Shown here piece by piece: positions 2,052 through 30,085 of a DNA stretch of 64,000 nucleotides; within the stretch, counting starts at the first letter, position 1; each line of letters opens with the position of its first letter. The DNA comes from an uncultured Clostridia bacterium. Lineage in GTDB: Bacteria; Bacillota; Clostridia; Lachnospirales; Anaerotignaceae. The stretch covers positions 1-64,000 of the forward strand of contig CALWGF010000010.1 of the NCBI GenBank assembly GCA_944379995.1, given 5' to 3'. The notes under the pieces are model-generated. The model ran no database searches. It was not told the origin of the DNA and was given only the letters and a program-made list of their open reading frames with translations. A program made the translations under genes and the position numbers.

Positions 2052-2840
2052 TTGAATAATGGAAAAATAAAAATTCTTTTAGCAGATGATAACAAAGATT
2101 TTTGTGATATTGTAAGTAATTATATTAACAAACAAGAGGATATGGAAGTTTGTAAATCAGTTTATGATGGTATAGATGCCTATAATAAAATACAAGAATT
2201 AAGACCTAATGTAGCTATTATAGATGGTATTATGCCTCGTCTTGATGGTCTTGGAGTTTTGGAAAAACTTCAAAATCAAGGTGGAAATATACCTATATGT
2301 ATTATTATTTCAGCAATAAGCCAAGAAAAAATTACACAAAGGGCTATTGAACTTGGAGCAGCATATTATATTGTAAAACCATTTGATATGGAGTCACTTT
2401 GTAGAAGAATACGTCAATTAGTAAGTGAAAAACCTGTAATAAAAACATCAACATATAATGCTATAAAAATTACAGGAAATACACAATATGACTTAGAAGC
2501 TAAAGTAACAAATATTTTACATGAAATAGGTGTACCAGCACATATAAGAGGTTATCATTACATGAGAGAAGCAATAATAATGAGTGTAAATGATATGGAC
2601 GTACTTAATTATATAACAAAAGAACTTTATCCTTCAATCGCTAAAAAATGTAATACTACACCTTCACGTGTTGAACGTGCAATTCGTCATGCAATTGAAG
2701 TTGCTTGGAATAGAGGTAAAATAGATGCAATAGATGCACTTTTTGGATATACAGTTGATAATCATAAGGGTAAACCTACAAATAGTGAATTTATAGCACT
2801 TATAGCTGATATGTTAAGACTTGAGCAAAAAGCAGTTTAA
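2052..2840 (+). CDS. spo0A: Sporulation master regulator Spo0A
   Basis: A 262-residue response regulator matching canonical Spo0A along its full length. The receiver domain (about 1-125) has an intact acidic pair D12/D13, phosphoacceptor D58 and conserved K109. The C-terminal Spo0A DNA-binding domain (about 150-262) keeps family blocks such as [11 protein letters not shown], the recognition helix [21 protein letters not shown] and KPTNSEFIA. In the family, phosphorylation drives dimerisation and binding to 0A boxes at sporulation and transition-state genes. The start is a TTG with SD GGAGGG 6 nt upstream. Unlike Bacillus, it is not next to spoIVB, which lies at 22562-23809. A diverged second Spo0A lies at 27468-28250. 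Confidence 0.95.
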
Positions 2841-22534: not shown

Positions 22535-22562
22535 AAAGTGTGAAGTTGTCTTCACACTTTTT
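22535..22562. terminator. Bidirectional terminator, carboxypeptidase / spoIVB
   Basis: AAAGTGTGAAG (22535-22545) pairs with CTTCACACTTT (22550-22560) around TTGT. An A-run precedes it and a T-run follows, so it suits both convergent genes. Confidence 0.85.
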
Positions 22563-23809
22563 TAAAGCATATTTTCAATAAATATTCCATAGCCTTTTGT
22601 AGGGTCATTTACAAATACATGTGTAACAGCACCTATTATATGATTATCTTGTATAATAGGACTTCCGCTCATTCCTTGAATGATACCACCGGTTTGTGAG
22701 AGTAATTTTTCATCAGTAATTCTTATAATCATACATTTTGAAGGATTTGAAGTATTTATATCAATGCTTTCTATATTTATTTCATATTTTTCAACTTTAT
22801 TTCCCGAAATATTAGTAAGAATATATGCTTTTCCTTCTTTTATATTTTCTTTTGTAGCTATTGGTAAAGCTTCTTGTTCTGTAAAATCTACATTTTCGCT
22901 GTATATTTTACCATATAAACCACACTCTGTATTTTGATATATTTCTCCTATTACTTTAGTATCATCTGTTTCTCCACTAAGTTCTCCAGGTATACCTTTT
23001 TCACCTTTTTTTATACCTGAAATAATAGTTTCTGTTATTTTACCATCTTTTATTGAAAGAAGACTTTTTGTATCAATATCATAAACACCATGACCTAAAG
23101 CTCCAAAACCTTTTGTTTGAGGATTATAATATGTTAAAGTTCCTATACCTTGTGTACAATCTCTCACCCAAGCACCTATTTTTTGTTTACCATCTTCTGT
23201 TGATATTATAGGAGTAAGAGTTTCTTGTAATGTTTCGCCGTTTCTTACTATGCTAATATTTAGAGAGCCGGTTGAACTTTCTACAATTTCTATAAGTTCT
23301 TCTTTTTGAGTTATTTTTTCACCATTTACATGAGTTATTAAATCGCCTGTTTTTAATACTCCTTTAGAAGGCTGACAAACTTCGTTTGTATCTTTATTAA
23401 CATATCCTGTACCTAAAACAAGTATACCATCTGTGTCAACAGTAACTCCAACAGCTTTTCCAACAGGAACAAGTTTTATTTCTGGTGAAACATTTACACT
23501 TACACTTTTCACAGGTACACCAAGAATTGACATATCTATTTTTGCAGTTCCTGATTGTATAGGATTTATTTCTATTGTGCCAAAATCTGTTTGTATATTT
23601 TCTGAAACTGTATTTTCAGAAATGTTTAAAACATTTACACTTTCTTCATCAATACTTGCATTTGCAATACCTACAAATAAATTTTTTGTTTGTCCTTCTA
23701 TAAGTTTTATATTTGATGGAATTGAAAAATATATAAGGGCAAATGATATAATAGCTGTAATAAGTAATGATAAAGATAGTTTTTTTATAAATTTATTTTT
23801 TACTACCAT
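22562..23809 (-). CDS. spoIVB: SpoIVB signalling serine peptidase
   Basis: A 415-residue SpoIVB (peptidase family S55). It has an N-terminal membrane anchor (about 12-30), a PDZ domain (about 115-200, with GVLKTGDLITHVNG) and a peptidase domain. The probable catalytic triad is H240 (GALGHGVYD), D366 (IRITDEK) and S381 (GMSGSPII), close to the positions known in Bacillus. In the family it is made in the forespore and cleaves SpoIVFA to release pro-sigma-K processing. It follows dacF by 74 nt in the same direction. In Bacillus spo0A follows spoIVB; here it does not. Confidence 0.95.
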   Translation of the reverse strand: MVVKNKFIKKLSLSLLITAIISFALIYFSIPSNIKLIEGQTKNLFVGIANASIDEESVNVLNISENTVSENIQTDFGTIEINPIQSGTAKIDMSILGVPVKSVSVNVSPEIKLVPVGKAVGVTVDTDGILVLGTGYVNKDTNEVCQPSKGVLKTGDLITHVNGEKITQKEELIEIVESSTGSLNISIVRNGETLQETLTPIISTEDGKQKIGAWVRDCTQGIGTLTYYNPQTKGFGALGHGVYDIDTKSLLSIKDGKITETIISGIKKGEKGIPGELSGETDDTKVIGEIYQNTECGLYGKIYSENVDFTEQEALPIATKENIKEGKAYILTNISGNKVEKYEINIESIDINTSNPSKCMIIRITDEKLLSQTGGIIQGMSGSPIIQDNHIIGAVTHVFVNDPTKGYGIFIENML

Positions 23810-23883: not shown

Positions 23884-25065
23884 TTAAAGTATTTCAAATT
23901 TTTTCAGTATGTTTTCAAAAAGAACATTTCCGCTTTCATTCCAAATATTAAATATTTTTTTAGACGATACTTTAATATCGTTTCTTTCTGCACTTTCTGA
24001 AGTTTTTATATTTACTTCACATTCTTTAATATCATTTATAAATATTTCTGCTTTTCCTATAATTGTATTTTCCAATACTGGTGCTTCTAAAGAGTCTGGA
24101 AGAACTATATTTATTTTTATATTTTGTTTTTCTTCTTCTGATAAAGGTAATGTTATAGAGTCACACATTTCTGTTGATATAAATTGTTTTTTTGATGTTG
24201 TTATAGGTATATTTCCTGTAAAATCACCTTCAACTACTATTTCTGTATCTGAAAAATTTTCAAAACCGTAGTTTAAAATATTTTTTGTATCAATCCATTT
24301 TTGTTCTTTTCCTGTATCTCCCCAACCACTTCCAAGTACAACAGAAATAAGAGTTTGACCATTTCTTTGGGCTGCACCAACAAAACAATGACCAGCTTTT
24401 CCAGTAAATCCTGTTTTTACACCTATTGCACCTTCATATTCTGTTAGAAGTCTGTCTTTATTTGTTACATTGTGTGTTTTTGTTCCATTTACTGTGTAAA
24501 ATGGTGTTTTTATTATTTCTCTAAATGTATCATTTTTTAATGCATAAGCTGTTATTATTGCCATGTCTTTTGCTGTTGAGTGGTGGTCATCAAGGTCAAG
24601 CCCATTTGGTGTTTTAAAAACTGTATCTGTACAACCTAAAGACTTTGCTTTTTCTGTCATCATAATACAAAAATCTTCAACACTTCCACCTATAAATTCT
24701 GCTATTGCAACAGCTGTATCATTATATGATGAAAGCATCATAGCATAAAGCATATCTTTTAATGTGTATTGTTCACCTTCAAGTATATGAAGTTTTACTT
24801 CTGGAGCAGACTGGGCACGTTTGCTTACAGTAAGTGTTTCATCAAGTTTACCACTTTCTATTGCTAATATAGCAGTCATTATTTTTGTTGTACTTGCCAT
24901 AGCTAATGGTTCATTTTCATTTTTGCCCCATAATATACGACCTGTTTCAAAATCCATAAGTACTGCACCAAGAGCATTTACTTTTGGAGAGTTTTCAGCA
25001 TATATATTAATTTGAAATGAAAATGTTATTATAAAAACAAGTAATAAAGCTATAAATTTTTTCAT
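23884..25065 (-). CDS. dacF: D-alanyl-D-alanine carboxypeptidase DacF
   Basis: A 393-residue exported D,D-carboxypeptidase with a signal peptide (hydrophobic residues about 4-20, ending near IYAEN). Active-site motifs are S58-TT-K61, S113-Y-N115 and K217-T-G219. A PBP5-like beta domain occupies about 265-350. The SYN triad and the neighbouring sporulation gene spoIVB suggest the sporulation carboxypeptidase DacF, but the paralogue at 21357 is similar and the assignment between them is inference. The SD TAGGAG is 8 nt before the ATG. It lies 65 nt after scpB on the same strand. Confidence 0.9.
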   Translation of the reverse strand: MKKFIALLLVFIITFSFQINIYAENSPKVNALGAVLMDFETGRILWGKNENEPLAMASTTKIMTAILAIESGKLDETLTVSKRAQSAPEVKLHILEGEQYTLKDMLYAMMLSSYNDTAVAIAEFIGGSVEDFCIMMTEKAKSLGCTDTVFKTPNGLDLDDHHSTAKDMAIITAYALKNDTFREIIKTPFYTVNGTKTHNVTNKDRLLTEYEGAIGVKTGFTGKAGHCFVGAAQRNGQTLISVVLGSGWGDTGKEQKWIDTKNILNYGFENFSDTEIVVEGDFTGNIPITTSKKQFISTEMCDSITLPLSEEEKQNIKINIVLPDSLEAPVLENTIIGKAEIFINDIKECEVNIKTSESAERNDIKVSSKKIFNIWNESGNVLFENILKKFEIL

Positions 25066-25130: not shown

Positions 25131-25679
25131 TTATTTATTTTCAGTATTTTCTAAATTTTCCAATGATATTTTTTCATCAAGAGGCGGAAGTTCTTTTACT
25201 GATGTAAAACCAAAATATCTGAGAAATTCTTTTGTTGTACCAAAAAGAATTGGTTTTCCCAGTGTATCAAGACGTCCTTTTTCACATACTAATTTTTTTT
25301 CAACAAGTTTATTTACAGCATGTTCAGAGTTTACACCTCGTATTTCTTCTATTTGTGATTTTGTTATAGGTTGTTTATATGCTATTATTGCAAGAGTTTC
25401 AAGTAGTGCCTGTGTAAGTCCCTGTTTTTGTGGTGATTTATACATATGTCGTATATAATCAAAACATTGTGGTGATGTACACATTTGATATGAATTTTCA
25501 TATTCTACAATTTGTATTCCTCTTTTTTCAGAAGCATATTTATCAGATAAAGAACGTATAATAGCTTTTGTTGTAGCTTTGTCCATATCTATTGTTTGAG
25601 CAAGTACAGATATAGGAACAGCTTCTCCGGATATAAAAAGGAGAGATTCAATTACAGCTTCAAGTTCATTAAGTTTCAA
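25131..25679 (-). CDS. scpB: Segregation and condensation protein B
   Basis: A 182-residue ScpB, the winged-helix subunit of the SMC-ScpAB condensin. Marks are AVIESLLFISGEAVP at the N-terminus, then QGLTQALLETLAIIAYKQPIT, IEEIRGVNSEHAVNKL and GRLDTLGKPILFGTTKEFLR-type sequence. It starts at a TTG 2 nt after the scpA stop, with GGAAGTGAT upstream, so the two subunits are translationally coupled. Confidence 0.95.
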   Translation of the reverse strand: MKLNELEAVIESLLFISGEAVPISVLAQTIDMDKATTKAIIRSLSDKYASEKRGIQIVEYENSYQMCTSPQCFDYIRHMYKSPQKQGLTQALLETLAIIAYKQPITKSQIEEIRGVNSEHAVNKLVEKKLVCEKGRLDTLGKPILFGTTKEFLRYFGFTSVKELPPLDEKISLENLENTENK

Positions 25680-25681
25680 TT

Positions 25682-26446
25682 TTAATCACTTCCATTATTT
25701 TTTAATATTATTATATCACCAAAAGGCTTTTCTTGTGTGATATAAACATCTTTTGTTTTTATAAGTTCTAATAATGCAAGAAAAGTAACTACTATTTCCA
25801 TTTTTTTTGCACCACTTCTAAATATAGACCTAAATATTATTTTTGGTGTTATAAAAAGTAAATCTTTTATATAATTTATTTTTTCGTCTATTGTATATAA
25901 ATCTCTTTCTACTGATTTGAATGAACTTCGTACTTTATCAACTTTTGTTTCTTTTCTTTTCATTACTTCTTGAAAGGCTTTGAAAATATCATTAAGTGTT
26001 ACTCCATTAAGAAAAGTTTCTATATTATCATTTTCTTCAATATTTTCAAAAAGTTTTTCAAATTCTTTATTTTTTTTATAAAGTACCAAAGATGCTTCTT
26101 CTTCATATTTTTTAAAATCTTGAGTTATATTTTTAAATTTCTTGTATTCAACAAGTTTTTTTACAAGTTCCTCTCGAGGGTCTTCTTCATTCTCTTCAGA
26201 TTTATCATCACGTTTTGAAGGAATAAGCATTTTTGATTTTATTTCAAGTAAAGTAGAAGCCATAATTATAAATTCGCTCATACTTTCCATATTTTTGTTA
26301 TCTGCATTTTCAATATACTCAATATATTGGTCTGTAAGAGAAGCTATTGGTATATTATATATATCTATTTCGTTTTTTTCTATAAGATGATAAAGAAGGT
26401 CCAAAGGACCTTCAAATGCTTCAAGATGAACAGTTATTTTTTTCAA
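25682..26446 (-). CDS. scpA: Segregation and condensation protein A
   Basis: A 254-residue ScpA kleisin that bridges SMC heads in chromosome condensation. The N-terminal signature is FEGPLDLLYHLIEKNEIDIY, followed by IASLTDQYIEYIE and EFIIMASTLLEIKSKML. The central region is acidic and the C-terminal winged helix ends in VTFLALLELIKTKDV. It starts at a TTG with AAGGAGA upstream. It is 17 nt downstream of the site-2-protease-like gene. Confidence 0.95.
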   Translation of the reverse strand: MKKITVHLEAFEGPLDLLYHLIEKNEIDIYNIPIASLTDQYIEYIENADNKNMESMSEFIIMASTLLEIKSKMLIPSKRDDKSEENEEDPREELVKKLVEYKKFKNITQDFKKYEEEASLVLYKKNKEFEKLFENIEENDNIETFLNGVTLNDIFKAFQEVMKRKETKVDKVRSSFKSVERDLYTIDEKINYIKDLLFITPKIIFRSIFRSGAKKMEIVVTFLALLELIKTKDVYITQEKPFGDIIILKNNGSD

Positions 26447-26463: not shown

Positions 26464-27081
26464 TTATAAACCTGCAAGAAAACTTAAAATAGTTATTACA
26501 AAATTAATTATAGGTGTAAATATAAAATCTGTTGTTCCCATAAAGAGGAAAATCATAAATACTGCCTGAACAACTTTTTCATATTGTAAGTATTGGAAAT
26601 ATTTATTTGAAGGAATTATATGTGCAAGTACCTTTAAACCGTCCATAGGTGATACAGGAACAATGTTATAAATAGCAAGACTTATGTTATATATTCCTAT
26701 TCTCATAAAAAGTGAATATATAATAATATTTCCTGTTTTTAAAAATACATTTCCAATTAAAAAACATATATATGCAACTAATATATTAGCTATATCAGGT
26801 GCTATTGCTGTTATAAGTGTATCTCTTTTTCTATTTTTATAATAAAGAGAAGTTGTATCTACTGGTTTTCCCCAACCAAAACCACCTGTTGCAAGCATAA
26901 GTATAAAACCTATTGGTTCAAAATGCTTTATTGGGTTTAATGTAACACGTCCCTTTTGTTTTGGTAAAGTATCACCAAGTATTGTTGATGTTATTGCTCT
27001 TGTAAACTCGTGTATTGTTGTTGCTACTATTATGCCTATTATGGCAAATAGTATAAATAAGAAACTATTTGTATTTAACAT
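26464..27081 (-). CDS. Site-2-protease-like membrane protein with altered active site
   Basis: A 205-residue polytopic protein of the M50/site-2-protease type. It has the family layout: an N-terminal helix with the zinc motif, LNPIKHFEPIGFILML, GGFGWGKPV, and a later YNIVPVSPMDG with the third ligand D147. The motif that should be HExxH reads H24-E25-F-T-R28, so the second zinc-ligand His is Arg. The usual AGPLSN block is AIAPDIAN. Either it is a non-catalytic member or metal binding differs. The reading frame is intact. Scission proteins of this family often neighbour scpAB in Firmicutes, as here. Confidence 0.85.
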   Translation of the reverse strand: MLNTNSFLFILFAIIGIIVATTIHEFTRAITSTILGDTLPKQKGRVTLNPIKHFEPIGFILMLATGGFGWGKPVDTTSLYYKNRKRDTLITAIAPDIANILVAYICFLIGNVFLKTGNIIIYSLFMRIGIYNISLAIYNIVPVSPMDGLKVLAHIIPSNKYFQYLQYEKVVQAVFMIFLFMGTTDFIFTPIINFVITILSFLAGL

Positions 27082-27467
27082 AAATTCAACTCCATAATAA
27101 TATTTTATAATAAATTACTGTATTAAATATAATATCAAAGTTATTATATTTAGTCTATACCTGTAAAATTAATTATATGTATATTATAAATATTTTAACT
27201 CTAAATATTTAACATAAGTATAATGATATACTGTATTTTAAGAGATATATGTAATATACAATAAATGTGCAAAAAAATGCTATTGGTGTCAAAAAACAGG
27301 GTGTATGTGCAGAATATATGGAATTTTAAACATTTATTGATATAATATTTAACGAAGTATTTTGTCATAAAAATAAATAAGGGAGATGAATTTGTGATAA
27401 TAAGTTAAAAGGATTGCTGACAAAATATTTTGATATACTTTTTTAAATTTTTAAGGGGGCGGAATAT
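27082..27467 (+). promoter_or_regulatory. Long leader of the second spo0A with 0A-like boxes
   Basis: This 386-nt gene-free region separates divergent genes. Three Spo0A-box-like sites (consensus TTTGTCRAA) are visible: GGTGTCAAA at 27285-27293, TTTGTCATA at 27361-27369, and TTTGTCAGC on the minus strand at 27416-27424. Just right of the first box, ACAGGGTGT (27296-27304) and ATGGAATTT (27318-27326) resemble a sigma-H promoter, with a 13-nt spacer that is one longer than usual. TATAAT at 27341 lacks a good -35. No convincing coding sequence was seen; the frame at 27388 closes after three codons. Confidence 0.4.
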
Positions 27468-28250
27468 ATGATTTCTGATATGTTGATTAAGGTTGTCGTA
27501 GTTGATAATAACGATATCTTTAGAAAAACCATAATTAACAGTTTGGAGAAAGAAAAAAATATTAAAGTAGTAGGAGAAGCATCAAACGGGGAAGAGGCTT
27601 TGAATTTAGTACTTAATAAAGAGGTTGATTTAGTTATACTTGATGTGATACTGCCAAAGAAAGATGGTTTATGGTTACTTGAAGAAATTGGGGATAAATG
27701 TAAAAATAAACCTAAGTGCATTGTAGTTTCTGCAATGAACTGTGATAGTATAGTAAAAAAGGCAGTTGAAGTGGGAGCATCATATTTTTTAAGTAAGCCT
27801 TTTGAAAGTGAACTTTTAATTAAAAGAATATTACAAATTTTTGATAATGAAAAAGAAGTTATACCAACAAAAACTTTTACAGAGGTTTCAAAAGAAAAAA
27901 CACTTGAGATGAAAATAACAGAAGTTTTAAATAGTTTTGGAATTACTCCAAGTATAATGGGATTTCATTATATAAGATGTGCTATTGAAATGGCTGTTTA
28001 TAATACAGAACTTCTTATAGGTATAACAAAAGGAATTTATCCTGATATTGCAAAGAAATATAATACAAGTAGTAGTAAAGTAGAAAGAGCAATAAGACAT
28101 GCAATAGAATGTATATGGCGTAATGGAAATAGTCATATATATTGTAAAACAATAGGAATTATGAATTCCAAAAAACCAACAAATAGCCAATTTATATCTA
28201 TATTAACAGAATATTTTAGACTTGGAATTATAAATGATAAAACAGCATAA
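27468..28250 (+). CDS. Divergent Spo0A paralogue
   Basis: A 260-residue protein with the same receiver plus Spo0A_C layout as 2052-2840 but clearly diverged. In the receiver, the acidic pair is D13-N14 instead of Asp-Asp, while phosphoacceptor D59 and K110 remain. In the DNA-binding domain the recognition helix is largely kept ([15 protein letters not shown]), as are LYPDIAKKYNT-like and KPTNSQFI blocks, but GVPAH and LFGYTV are lost (ITPSI, TIGIMN). It probably binds 0A-type sites with changed phosphorylation or dimer behaviour. The SD AAGGGGG supports the ATG at 27468. It stands alone, with its own long upstream region and terminator. Confidence 0.9.
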   Translation: MISDMLIKVVVVDNNDIFRKTIINSLEKEKNIKVVGEASNGEEALNLVLNKEVDLVILDVILPKKDGLWLLEEIGDKCKNKPKCIVVSAMNCDSIVKKAVEVGASYFLSKPFESELLIKRILQIFDNEKEVIPTKTFTEVSKEKTLEMKITEVLNSFGITPSIMGFHYIRCAIEMAVYNTELLIGITKGIYPDIAKKYNTSSSKVERAIRHAIECIWRNGNSHIYCKTIGIMNSKKPTNSQFISILTEYFRLGIINDKTA

Positions 28251-28297: not shown

Positions 28298-30085
28298 TTA
28301 TTCTTCTATTTTTAAATTTTTAATTTTTAATGGTTCAGGATTTATATACACAGACCAGTTTTGTTCATATATTACCATACCTGGTTTTGAACCATTAGGT
28401 TTTTTAATATTTTTTCTGAATGTATAATCAACAGGTACAAGAGTACCATCTTTTGCTTTACTATTAATAACAGCTAAATTTGCTGCTTCAATAAGAGTAT
28501 TATCTGGAAGGTCATTTATATCATTGCATTTTCCTTCTGTTTTTATTATTACATGAGAGCCAGCTATATTCTTTGTATGAAGCCAAAGGTCATTTGGAGC
28601 AGCAAAATGTAATGTAAGGTCATCATTTTGAATATTACTTTTTCCTACATATATGTCAAAACCATCTGATGATATATAGTGCATAGGTTTTGATTTTTTG
28701 ATTTTTTGTCCTTTACCTTTTTTAAATGATTTTCTTTTCATATATCCAGCATCAACAAGTTCTTCGCGTATTTCTAAAAGGTCAGAGTCTGTATTTGATG
28801 TTTCAAGAGAATTTAATATACTTTCTAAATATATAAGTTCCTCATCATTTTGTTTTTTCTGAATATCAATAGCGGCAAGAGTACGTTTTGCTTTATTATA
28901 TTTTGCAAAATATTTTTGTGCATTTTCAGCAGGTGTTTTTAATGGGTCTATTTGTATTTCTATTTCAGGCATATTTTCATCATAAAAATTTATTGTCTTA
29001 AATACTGTCATACCTTTTTGAACTGCATAAATATTTGCTGTAAGAAGTTCTCCTTTTACACGCCAATCTTCTCTATTTTCAATACTTTTTAATGTCTTTT
29101 GTTGAATTTCTGACTTTTTAACACATCTTTCAATATTTGTTAAAATTATTCTTCTCATATCATGTGCCTTTTGCTGAATATGATACATATTATCTCTTTC
29201 AGCATAATATTCTTCTAAAAGTGCAGATATAGAGTCAAAATGCTGTTTTTTAAATCCATTACCATATTGTAACATTGAAATTGAAGAAAATTCTGTTATT
29301 TTTTCTGTATCTTCTGTATATATAATTTCAGGACTATATTTTTCAGATTTTATATCATTAAATACATTATAAAAAGTATCATATAATTTTGAAAAGCCAT
29401 TTTCGTCAATTTCACCACAGTAAGAAGATGGGTCAAATCCAGCTCTAAAACATATTTCACTTGCCATTACAGGACTTATACCTGTATAATTTTTATATAT
29501 AAATCCTTGAAGTTTTTGACCGTCTGTAATTTTTGATAAAGATATAAATTCATCTTTATTTGTTAATATAGGATTTTTTTTGTCTTGTGATGGTGGTAAC
29601 ATATATTGTTTGTTTGGAAGAACTTCTCTGACAGAACTTTTATCATGAGAAACTCTTTTAATTGAGTCAAGTATTATACCATTTTCATCAGTAAGAATAA
29701 TATTACTGTGTTTTCCCATTATTTCTATAATGAGAGTTTTTATACCCATATCTCCCATTTCGTTTAAGCCTTCAATTTTTATATTAATTATTCTTTCAAA
29801 ATTAGGCTGTTCTATTGAAATTATTTTACCACCTGCTATATGTTTTCTTAAAACCATACAAAACATAGGAGCTTGGGCTGGGTTGTCTTTTTGTATTTCT
29901 GTAATATGAATTCTTGGGTGACTTGAATTTGCAGTAGCTAAAACTTTAATATTTTTTCCAAGACTTCTTATTGAAAATATTATTTCATCATTTAATGGCT
30001 GATAAATTTTATCTATTCTTCCACCAATGAGTTTTTTTTGAAGCTCTGAAACTATATTGGAAACGGTTATTCCGTCAAGTGCCAT
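28298..30085 (-). CDS. rqcH: Ribosome quality control factor RqcH (NFACT family)
   Basis: A 595-residue NFACT protein, the bacterial Rqc2/NEMF homologue. It binds stalled 50S-peptidyl-tRNA complexes and directs alanine tailing for degradation. The NFACT-N domain begins ALDGITVSNIVSEL and contains NSSHPRIH. It is followed by HhH and coiled-coil regions (about 280-440) and the NFACT-R domain with DGFDIYVGKSN and NDLWLHTKNIAGSHVII. Older annotation calls it fibronectin-binding protein A. The SD CGGAGG precedes the ATG. It diverges from yicC. Confidence 0.95.
   Translation of the reverse strand: MALDGITVSNIVSELQKKLIGGRIDKIYQPLNDEIIFSIRSLGKNIKVLATANSSHPRIHITEIQKDNPAQAPMFCMVLRKHIAGGKIISIEQPNFERIINIKIEGLNEMGDMGIKTLIIEIMGKHSNIILTDENGIILDSIKRVSHDKSSVREVLPNKQYMLPPSQDKKNPILTNKDEFISLSKITDGQKLQGFIYKNYTGISPVMASEICFRAGFDPSSYCGEIDENGFSKLYDTFYNVFNDIKSEKYSPEIIYTEDTEKITEFSSISMLQYGNGFKKQHFDSISALLEEYYAERDNMYHIQQKAHDMRRIILTNIERCVKKSEIQQKTLKSIENREDWRVKGELLTANIYAVQKGMTVFKTINFYDENMPEIEIQIDPLKTPAENAQKYFAKYNKAKRTLAAIDIQKKQNDEELIYLESILNSLETSNTDSDLLEIREELVDAGYMKRKSFKKGKGQKIKKSKPMHYISSDGFDIYVGKSNIQNDDLTLHFAAPNDLWLHTKNIAGSHVIIKTEGKCNDINDLPDNTLIEAANLAVINSKAKDGTLVPVDYTFRKNIKKPNGSKPGMVIYEQNWSVYINPEPLKIKNLKIEE

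Follow-up and report, generated by a model that had tools for sequence, protein, structure and literature searches.

A diverged Spo0A paralogue beside spoIVB in a family of Clostridia: a candidate phosphorylation-independent antagonist of the sporulation master regulator

The second Spo0A-type protein encoded in the window (the whole stretch of 64,000 nucleotides analysed here) is ancient and family-wide rather than particular to its source genome. Among 58 genomes from the family to which its source genome belongs, nearly all had a canonical Spo0A_C domain (about 157-161 bits) and most had a second, diverged one (about 100-124 bits). The most telling fact, absent from the initial annotation of this DNA, is that the diverged copy occupies the ancestral spoIVB-spo0A site.

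Results

A second Spo0A in the window

The initial annotation had claimed a second, diverged Spo0A-type protein in the window, and this proved to be real. The gene is a stop-free open reading frame with an ATG start (Table 1), whose 260 aa product matches both Response_reg (3.6e-24) and Spo0A_C (7e-34) in Pfam. Searching the whole 2.09 Mb draft genome returned exactly two Spo0A_C genes (matches at 2505-2816 and 27915-28214). Against the NCBIfam profile TIGR02875 (cut-off 200) the paralogue scores 226.6 bits and the canonical copy 364.2 bits, the two proteins being 38.7% identical. Alignment confirmed the D13-N14 pocket and D59 that had been described, and showed that S88 and K110 are also kept. 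The two reported losses were likewise borne out: GVPAH reads ITPSI in the paralogue, and the LFGYTV block is replaced by a stretch three residues shorter. The recognition helix, described as kept, is conserved in general with the exception of an R211K change. AlphaFold returned a two-domain model (mean pLDDT 76.6, pTM 0.53, 9 sequences), the receiver half of which resembles the Spo0A receivers 1qmp and 5wq0 in Foldseek (TMt about 0.9); the model adds little to what may be predicted from the sequence.

Table 1. Features of the window that bear on the Spo0A paralogue.
Feature	Position	Strand	Basis
spo0A, canonical; spoIVB not adjacent in family	2052..2840	+	Profile matches
spoIVB, marker of ancestral recN-spoIVB-spo0A site	22562..23809	-	Peptidase_S55 2.1e-85
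D-Ala-D-Ala carboxypeptidase (dacF-like)	23884..25065	-	Sequence and synteny
scpB and scpA	25131..26446	-	Synteny
M50 peptidase	26464..27081	-	Synteny, domain search
0A-box-like TGACAAA; TGGCGAA or TGACGAA there in two other species of the genus	27361..27367	-	Motif search
Second 0A-box-like TGACAAA, opposite orientation; TGGCGAA in G034	27418..27424	+	Motif search
Ribosome-binding site AAGGGGGCGG, strong	27453..27462	+	Upstream sequence, precedes ATG
Diverged Spo0A paralogue gene, 260 aa	27468..28250	+	ORF, Pfam/NCBIfam profiles, orthologues
Receiver domain, aa 7-127, predicted pseudo-receiver lacking second Mg-binding acid	27486..27848	+	Pfam PF00072, AlphaFold model, Foldseek
D13-N14 codons (DD1, DD2, acidic pocket)	27504..27509	+	Alignment
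D59 phosphoacceptor position, kept in window copy	27642..27644	+	Alignment
Spo0A_C DNA-binding domain, aa 143-253	27894..28226	+	Pfam; alignment to 1lq1, 1fc3
Recognition helix, aa 202-218; E213 R214 R217 H218 kept, R211K	28071..28121	+	Alignment, model
Replaced block, 3 aa shorter, matching B. subtilis 225-245	28119..28172	+	Alignment
rqcH (NFACT), neighbour conserved in several genera	28298..30085	-	Synteny

Distribution, phylogeny and selection

From the names of relatives in it (Tyzzerella sp. An114, Candidatus Fimicola, Anaerotignum neopropionicum, A. lactatifermentans, Chakrabartyella piscis and Clostridium sp. MD294, i.e. ASF356), the family of 58 genomes is read as Anaerotignaceae. Genomes in which canonical Spo0A is missing, e.g. 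G012 and G057, are incomplete assemblies. The premise of the initial annotation that spore formers mostly have a single Spo0A is weak, since multiple Spo0A_C proteins are common among Clostridia: in a sample spanning the class, about 87 of the 229 genomes positive for Spo0A_C have two or more, some of these being fragments. The extra copies of the wider class are of several kinds, many with an intact pocket and the LFGYTV block.

In a tree of 63 representative proteins, the paralogues of the family formed one clade (ultrafast bootstrap 91, SH-aLRT 73) that lies outside the order's canonical clade. Their branching among genera broadly mirrors that of the canonical copies, which is the pattern expected from vertical inheritance. 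A duplication within the family, with its paralogues and canonical copies held together, was disfavoured (AU test, p = 0.036). Diverged copies from family f12 join the paralogue clade with support of 95/88, and a single clade of all diverged copies at the level of the order (including f12, f17 and f25) was not rejected (AU test, p = 0.42), these deep joins being uncertain owing to many long branches.

Within the genus of the window, dN/dS was 0.11-0.18 for the paralogue (0.04-0.10 for the DNA-binding domain and about 0.15-0.17 for the receiver) and 0.06-0.07 for canonical Spo0A, as simple Nei-Gojobori counts with synonymous sites partly saturated. The paralogue is under purifying selection, which is strongest in the DNA-binding domain. 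It has apparently been lost in genera g11, g13, g15 and g16 with SpoIIIAE retained, and is therefore not essential for sporulation. Any correlation between the paralogue and sporulation is uninformative, as SpoIIIAE is near-universal (56/58 genomes of the family).

The tree, the distribution and dN/dS together reject a recent degenerate duplicate under relaxed selection, an outcome that would have counted against the proposal of the initial annotation. A functionless duplicate in decay would account for the long branches, the apparent losses in a few genera and a truncation in g12. However, decay is made very improbable indeed by the dN/dS of 0.11-0.18, by vertical inheritance that is broadly congruent in most genera and by the invariance of the DNA-contact residues. 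A horizontal or phage origin was also considered and rejected, the matches in the phage collection being unannotated faecal scaffolds with a canonical-like Spo0A and not one of the paralogue type. These scaffolds (MT836727.1, MT835504.1 and other MT83xxxx records; L186-L191) are unverified 'Bacteriophage sp.' entries with full-length Spo0A, most of it canonical-like, and may be bacterial DNA.

Further Spo0A-type frames were observed in the family. Short Spo0A_C frames occur several to a genome in Anaerotignum-type genomes and may be compared with the truncated spo0A borne by phages (PMC10294663). One, in Clostridium sp. MD294/ASF356 (L185:4995-5210, G029), encodes a 71 aa protein that covers no more than the C-terminal two thirds of Spo0A_C; the neighbourhood, with two large serine recombinases and a GHKL/LytTR pair, resembles that of a mobile element. 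In G057 (genus g17) the paralogue is present as two adjacent frames, receiver and Spo0A_C (L068:3765-4645), which is either a natural split or a frameshift in the draft assembly. G056 has an extra Spo0A besides the paralogue and the main copy (L062:3658-4581), 59% identical to P2 with an intact pocket and LFGYTV; it sits on another contig, close to a second spoIVB, and is possibly contamination.

Genomic context

The usual location of spo0A is after recN-spoIVB, and canonical copies in many families, from the order as well as the class, show this arrangement. Within the family studied here, canonical spo0A was found up to 3 kb downstream of spoIVB in 0/50 genomes. It is the paralogue that lies within 3 kb downstream of spoIVB on the same strand, in 25/46 genomes, and within 10 kb of it in 32 of the 33 genomes that have both genes on one contig. 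A diverged copy near spoIVB was also found in single representatives of families f12 (L144, L145), f17 (L147, in the order recN-spoIVB-paralogue) and f25 (L150). In the window the paralogue is 3.7 kb from spoIVB in divergent orientation, the order being spoIVB, dacF, scpB, scpA and M50 (all minus), the paralogue (plus) and rqcH (minus); so the gene has here been inverted or shifted by a local rearrangement, with proximity to spoIVB kept. The simplest reading of position and tree is that the paralogue is the resident of the ancestral spoIVB site and the canonical sequence the relocated copy, whatever the date of the event.

Two candidates (L105 and L169), taken at first as paralogues near scpAB, actually lie after recN (with spoIVB in L105), the usual context of spo0A, and were not counted. 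A separate spoIVB-adjacent copy from family f19 of the same order (L149:827-1594, G075) has a DNA-binding domain of canonical type with an LFGYTV-like block (155.7 bits) and Gly at the phosphoacceptor position, and is perhaps an independent phosphorylation-free Spo0A.

Residue changes

Residues were compared between 43 paralogues and 33 canonical copies of the family, numbered by PDB 1lq1. E213, R214, R217, H218, T248 and N249 are invariant in both sets, and R211 is replaced (Lys or Cys) in 43/43 paralogues. The second acid of the Mg-binding pocket (DD2) is Asp in 33/33 canonical copies and non-acidic in 43/43 paralogues (Arg 29, Asn 5, Ser 3, Cys 3, Lys 2, Gly 1). The phosphoacceptor Asp is kept in 37/43 paralogues; five, all of genus g14, have Tyr in its place together with Glu for the active-site Lys. 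At K+2, all canonical copies have Phe, and 32/43 paralogues have Ile (26), Val (4) or Leu (2). In the window copy, DD2 is Asn and K+2 is Phe, an inactive-biased residue that is found there across the genus.

A pseudo-receiver has been defined by the absence of one of the five active-site residues of a receiver, and DD2 is non-acidic in about 80% of them (PMC12632262). With Asn at DD2, the active site of the window paralogue (DD, D, T/S, K) is incomplete, and as judged from sequence its receiver is a pseudo-receiver under that definition. Moreover, Ile, Val or Leu at K+2 is reported to push CheY toward active states (PMC12632262), and Lys at the DD2-equivalent site of CheY (D13K) gives kinase-independent activity (cited in PMC4671073). 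Genus g14 (L053, L056, L058, L059 and L060), in which Cys-Cys or Cys-Ser stands for Asp-Asp and residue 211 is Cys, is by its predicted active site a full pseudo-receiver lineage. The paralogue could still be a phosphorylated second Spo0A with altered kinetics and a different kinase. D13, D59, S88 and K110 are kept in the genus of the window, and a relative at the level of the order, located at the rqcH site, has an intact Glu-Asp pocket, both of which favour such a protein. This reading is nevertheless improbable, given that DD2 is non-acidic throughout (43/43, Arg/Lys in 31) and that genus g14 lacks the phosphoacceptor as well.

Residues 227-240 of B. subtilis Spo0A, F236 among them, form what we take to be the sigma-A contact region; contact of these residues with sigma-A was reportedly described in two papers in J. 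Bacteriol. in 1998. The block at B. subtilis positions 231-240 is altered in most of the 43 paralogues, and F236, present in 33/33 canonical copies, is lost in 36/43 (kept in 7/43). H162 is replaced in 43/43, D258 is Glu in 42/43, and A257 is replaced by Ser or Thr in 27/43 and kept in 16/43. In B. subtilis, the Spo0A substitution A257V abolishes activation of spoIIA and spoIIG with repression of abrB retained, and its suppressors map to H162 and L174 (PMC9195935).

The replaced block is itself conserved among paralogues (VYFExxGY; G237 in 41/43), with T248 and N249 invariant, a pattern more suggestive of a new interface than of simple loss. The main rival to the reading preferred below is therefore a separate activator that has a regulon of its own, and that would bind a subset of 0A-like sites and use a different surface to contact RNA polymerase, its pseudo-receiver sensing a protein or ligand and not phosphate. 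Continued selection on the receiver (dN/dS about 0.15) also speaks for this. However, no obvious co-inherited targets or partner kinase were seen at the locus, where the neighbours (spoIVB, dacF, scpAB, rqcH) have housekeeping or sporulation roles, and we regard a separate activator as unlikely. Alternatively, the paralogue may be a hetero-dimer partner that shifts the box occupancy of Spo0A, given that Spo0A acts as a dimer on DNA and that the receiver and DNA-binding folds are predicted to be kept. Against this, the receiver has diverged, as have D258 and L260 close to the C-terminal helix, leaving hetero-dimerisation quite improbable.

Upstream 0A-box-like sites

The two sites upstream of the paralogue (Table 1) form an inverted pair at about -50 and -107 in the window and at -45 and -95 in G034, G033 having the outer site only. 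Within 150 bases upstream, TGNCRAA was found for 22/33 paralogues and in 28/152 control regions, and TGNCGAA for 9/33 and in 12/152, the controls not being phylogenetically independent. Similar enrichment was found upstream of canonical spo0A. Enrichment is confined to these looser patterns: the exact 0A box TGTCGAA was not enriched in the window (1 against 2.2 expected) or upstream of paralogues (2 against 0.42), nor was TTTTGTCRWAA with one mismatch enriched over the window. These putative sites, compared across related species, suggest that expression of the paralogue may be controlled by Spo0A or by the paralogue itself.

Discussion

We tentatively favour, at somewhat under an even chance, the reading that the paralogue is a DNA-binding, activation-deficient and largely phosphorylation-independent Spo0A that represses or competes. 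Under this proposal spo0A would have been duplicated before the family arose; the copy beside spoIVB then diverged, and the copy elsewhere presumably kept the sequence of the master regulator. The paralogue most likely still binds 0A-box DNA through its unchanged recognition helix, with little or no expected dependence on the Spo0A phosphorylation pathway. It would probably be unable to activate sigma-A promoters, because of the changed activation surface and the coupled positions H162 and A257/D258. Binding without activation could then lead to repression of early targets, or to competition with Spo0A~P at the promoters that it activates. Sporulation would thereby be delayed or given a threshold, and expression of the paralogue itself may be under feedback of the Spo0A type. 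The parts of this account to which sequence speaks are conservation, position, the residue changes, purifying selection and the putative upstream 0A-like sites.

Loss of DD2 in 43/43 paralogues, mostly to Arg or Lys and thus the CheY D13K class of change, counts in favour of such a brake. Counting against it, the window copy keeps D13, D59, S88 and K110 and has Phe at K+2, and Asn at DD2 may leave it with partial Mg binding; moreover, the phosphoacceptor is kept in 37/43 paralogues, F236 in 7/43 and A257 in 16/43, and four genera that have SpoIIIAE seem to do without the paralogue. The initial annotation had proposed that the second protein might antagonise, tune or replace Spo0A. Since the DNA-contact residues are kept, the first two of these are reasonable at 0A boxes; replacement is unlikely, as canonical Spo0A is present in nearly all genomes searched. 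More doubtful, although worth considering, is the broader proposal that in part of the Lachnospirales the role of master regulator moved to a relocated spo0A, and that the resident of the ancestral site became a dedicated phosphorylation-independent antagonist of Spo0A, a brake kept across most of this family of gut bacteria.

To our knowledge, Clostridia mostly lack the phosphorelay of Bacillus; a conserved pseudo-receiver Spo0A would be a direct candidate for the means by which they restrain Spo0A. The paralogue also represents a case in which position and function were separated after duplication of a master regulator. In practical terms, calls of 'Spo0A present' that rely on TIGR02875 or on position after spoIVB can select the wrong protein in this family. 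The role of the paralogue is testable, as the family has culturable strains; to it belong ASF356, a strain of the Altered Schaedler Flora, and Anaerotignum species that have been cultured.

Comparison with known systems

Spo0A, pseudo-receivers and genomes with several Spo0A_C copies are already known. In the open-access literature searched, no description was found of a second Spo0A of this kind, nor of a pseudo-receiver Spo0A, family-wide and at the ancestral site or otherwise. The paralogue resembles Spo0A (TIGR02875) in its two domains, length and DNA-contact residues, in scoring above the cut-off and, for much of the family, in its genomic place following spoIVB. It differs at the second Mg-binding acid, H162, D258 and the 231-240 block, and in coexisting with a canonical Spo0A. 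With pseudo-receiver response regulators (PMC12632262) it shares the missing DD2 acid, whereas its output domain is Spo0A_C. As in B. subtilis Spo0A A257V (spo0A9V type; PMC9195935), the paralogues are changed at H162 and A257, with D258E in addition; in contrast to that mutant, their changes are natural, ancient and multiple. Finally, the truncated Spo0A carried by phages (PMC10294663) likewise has a DNA-binding domain presumed to be active without phosphorylation signals, whereas the paralogue is full length, chromosomal and vertically inherited.
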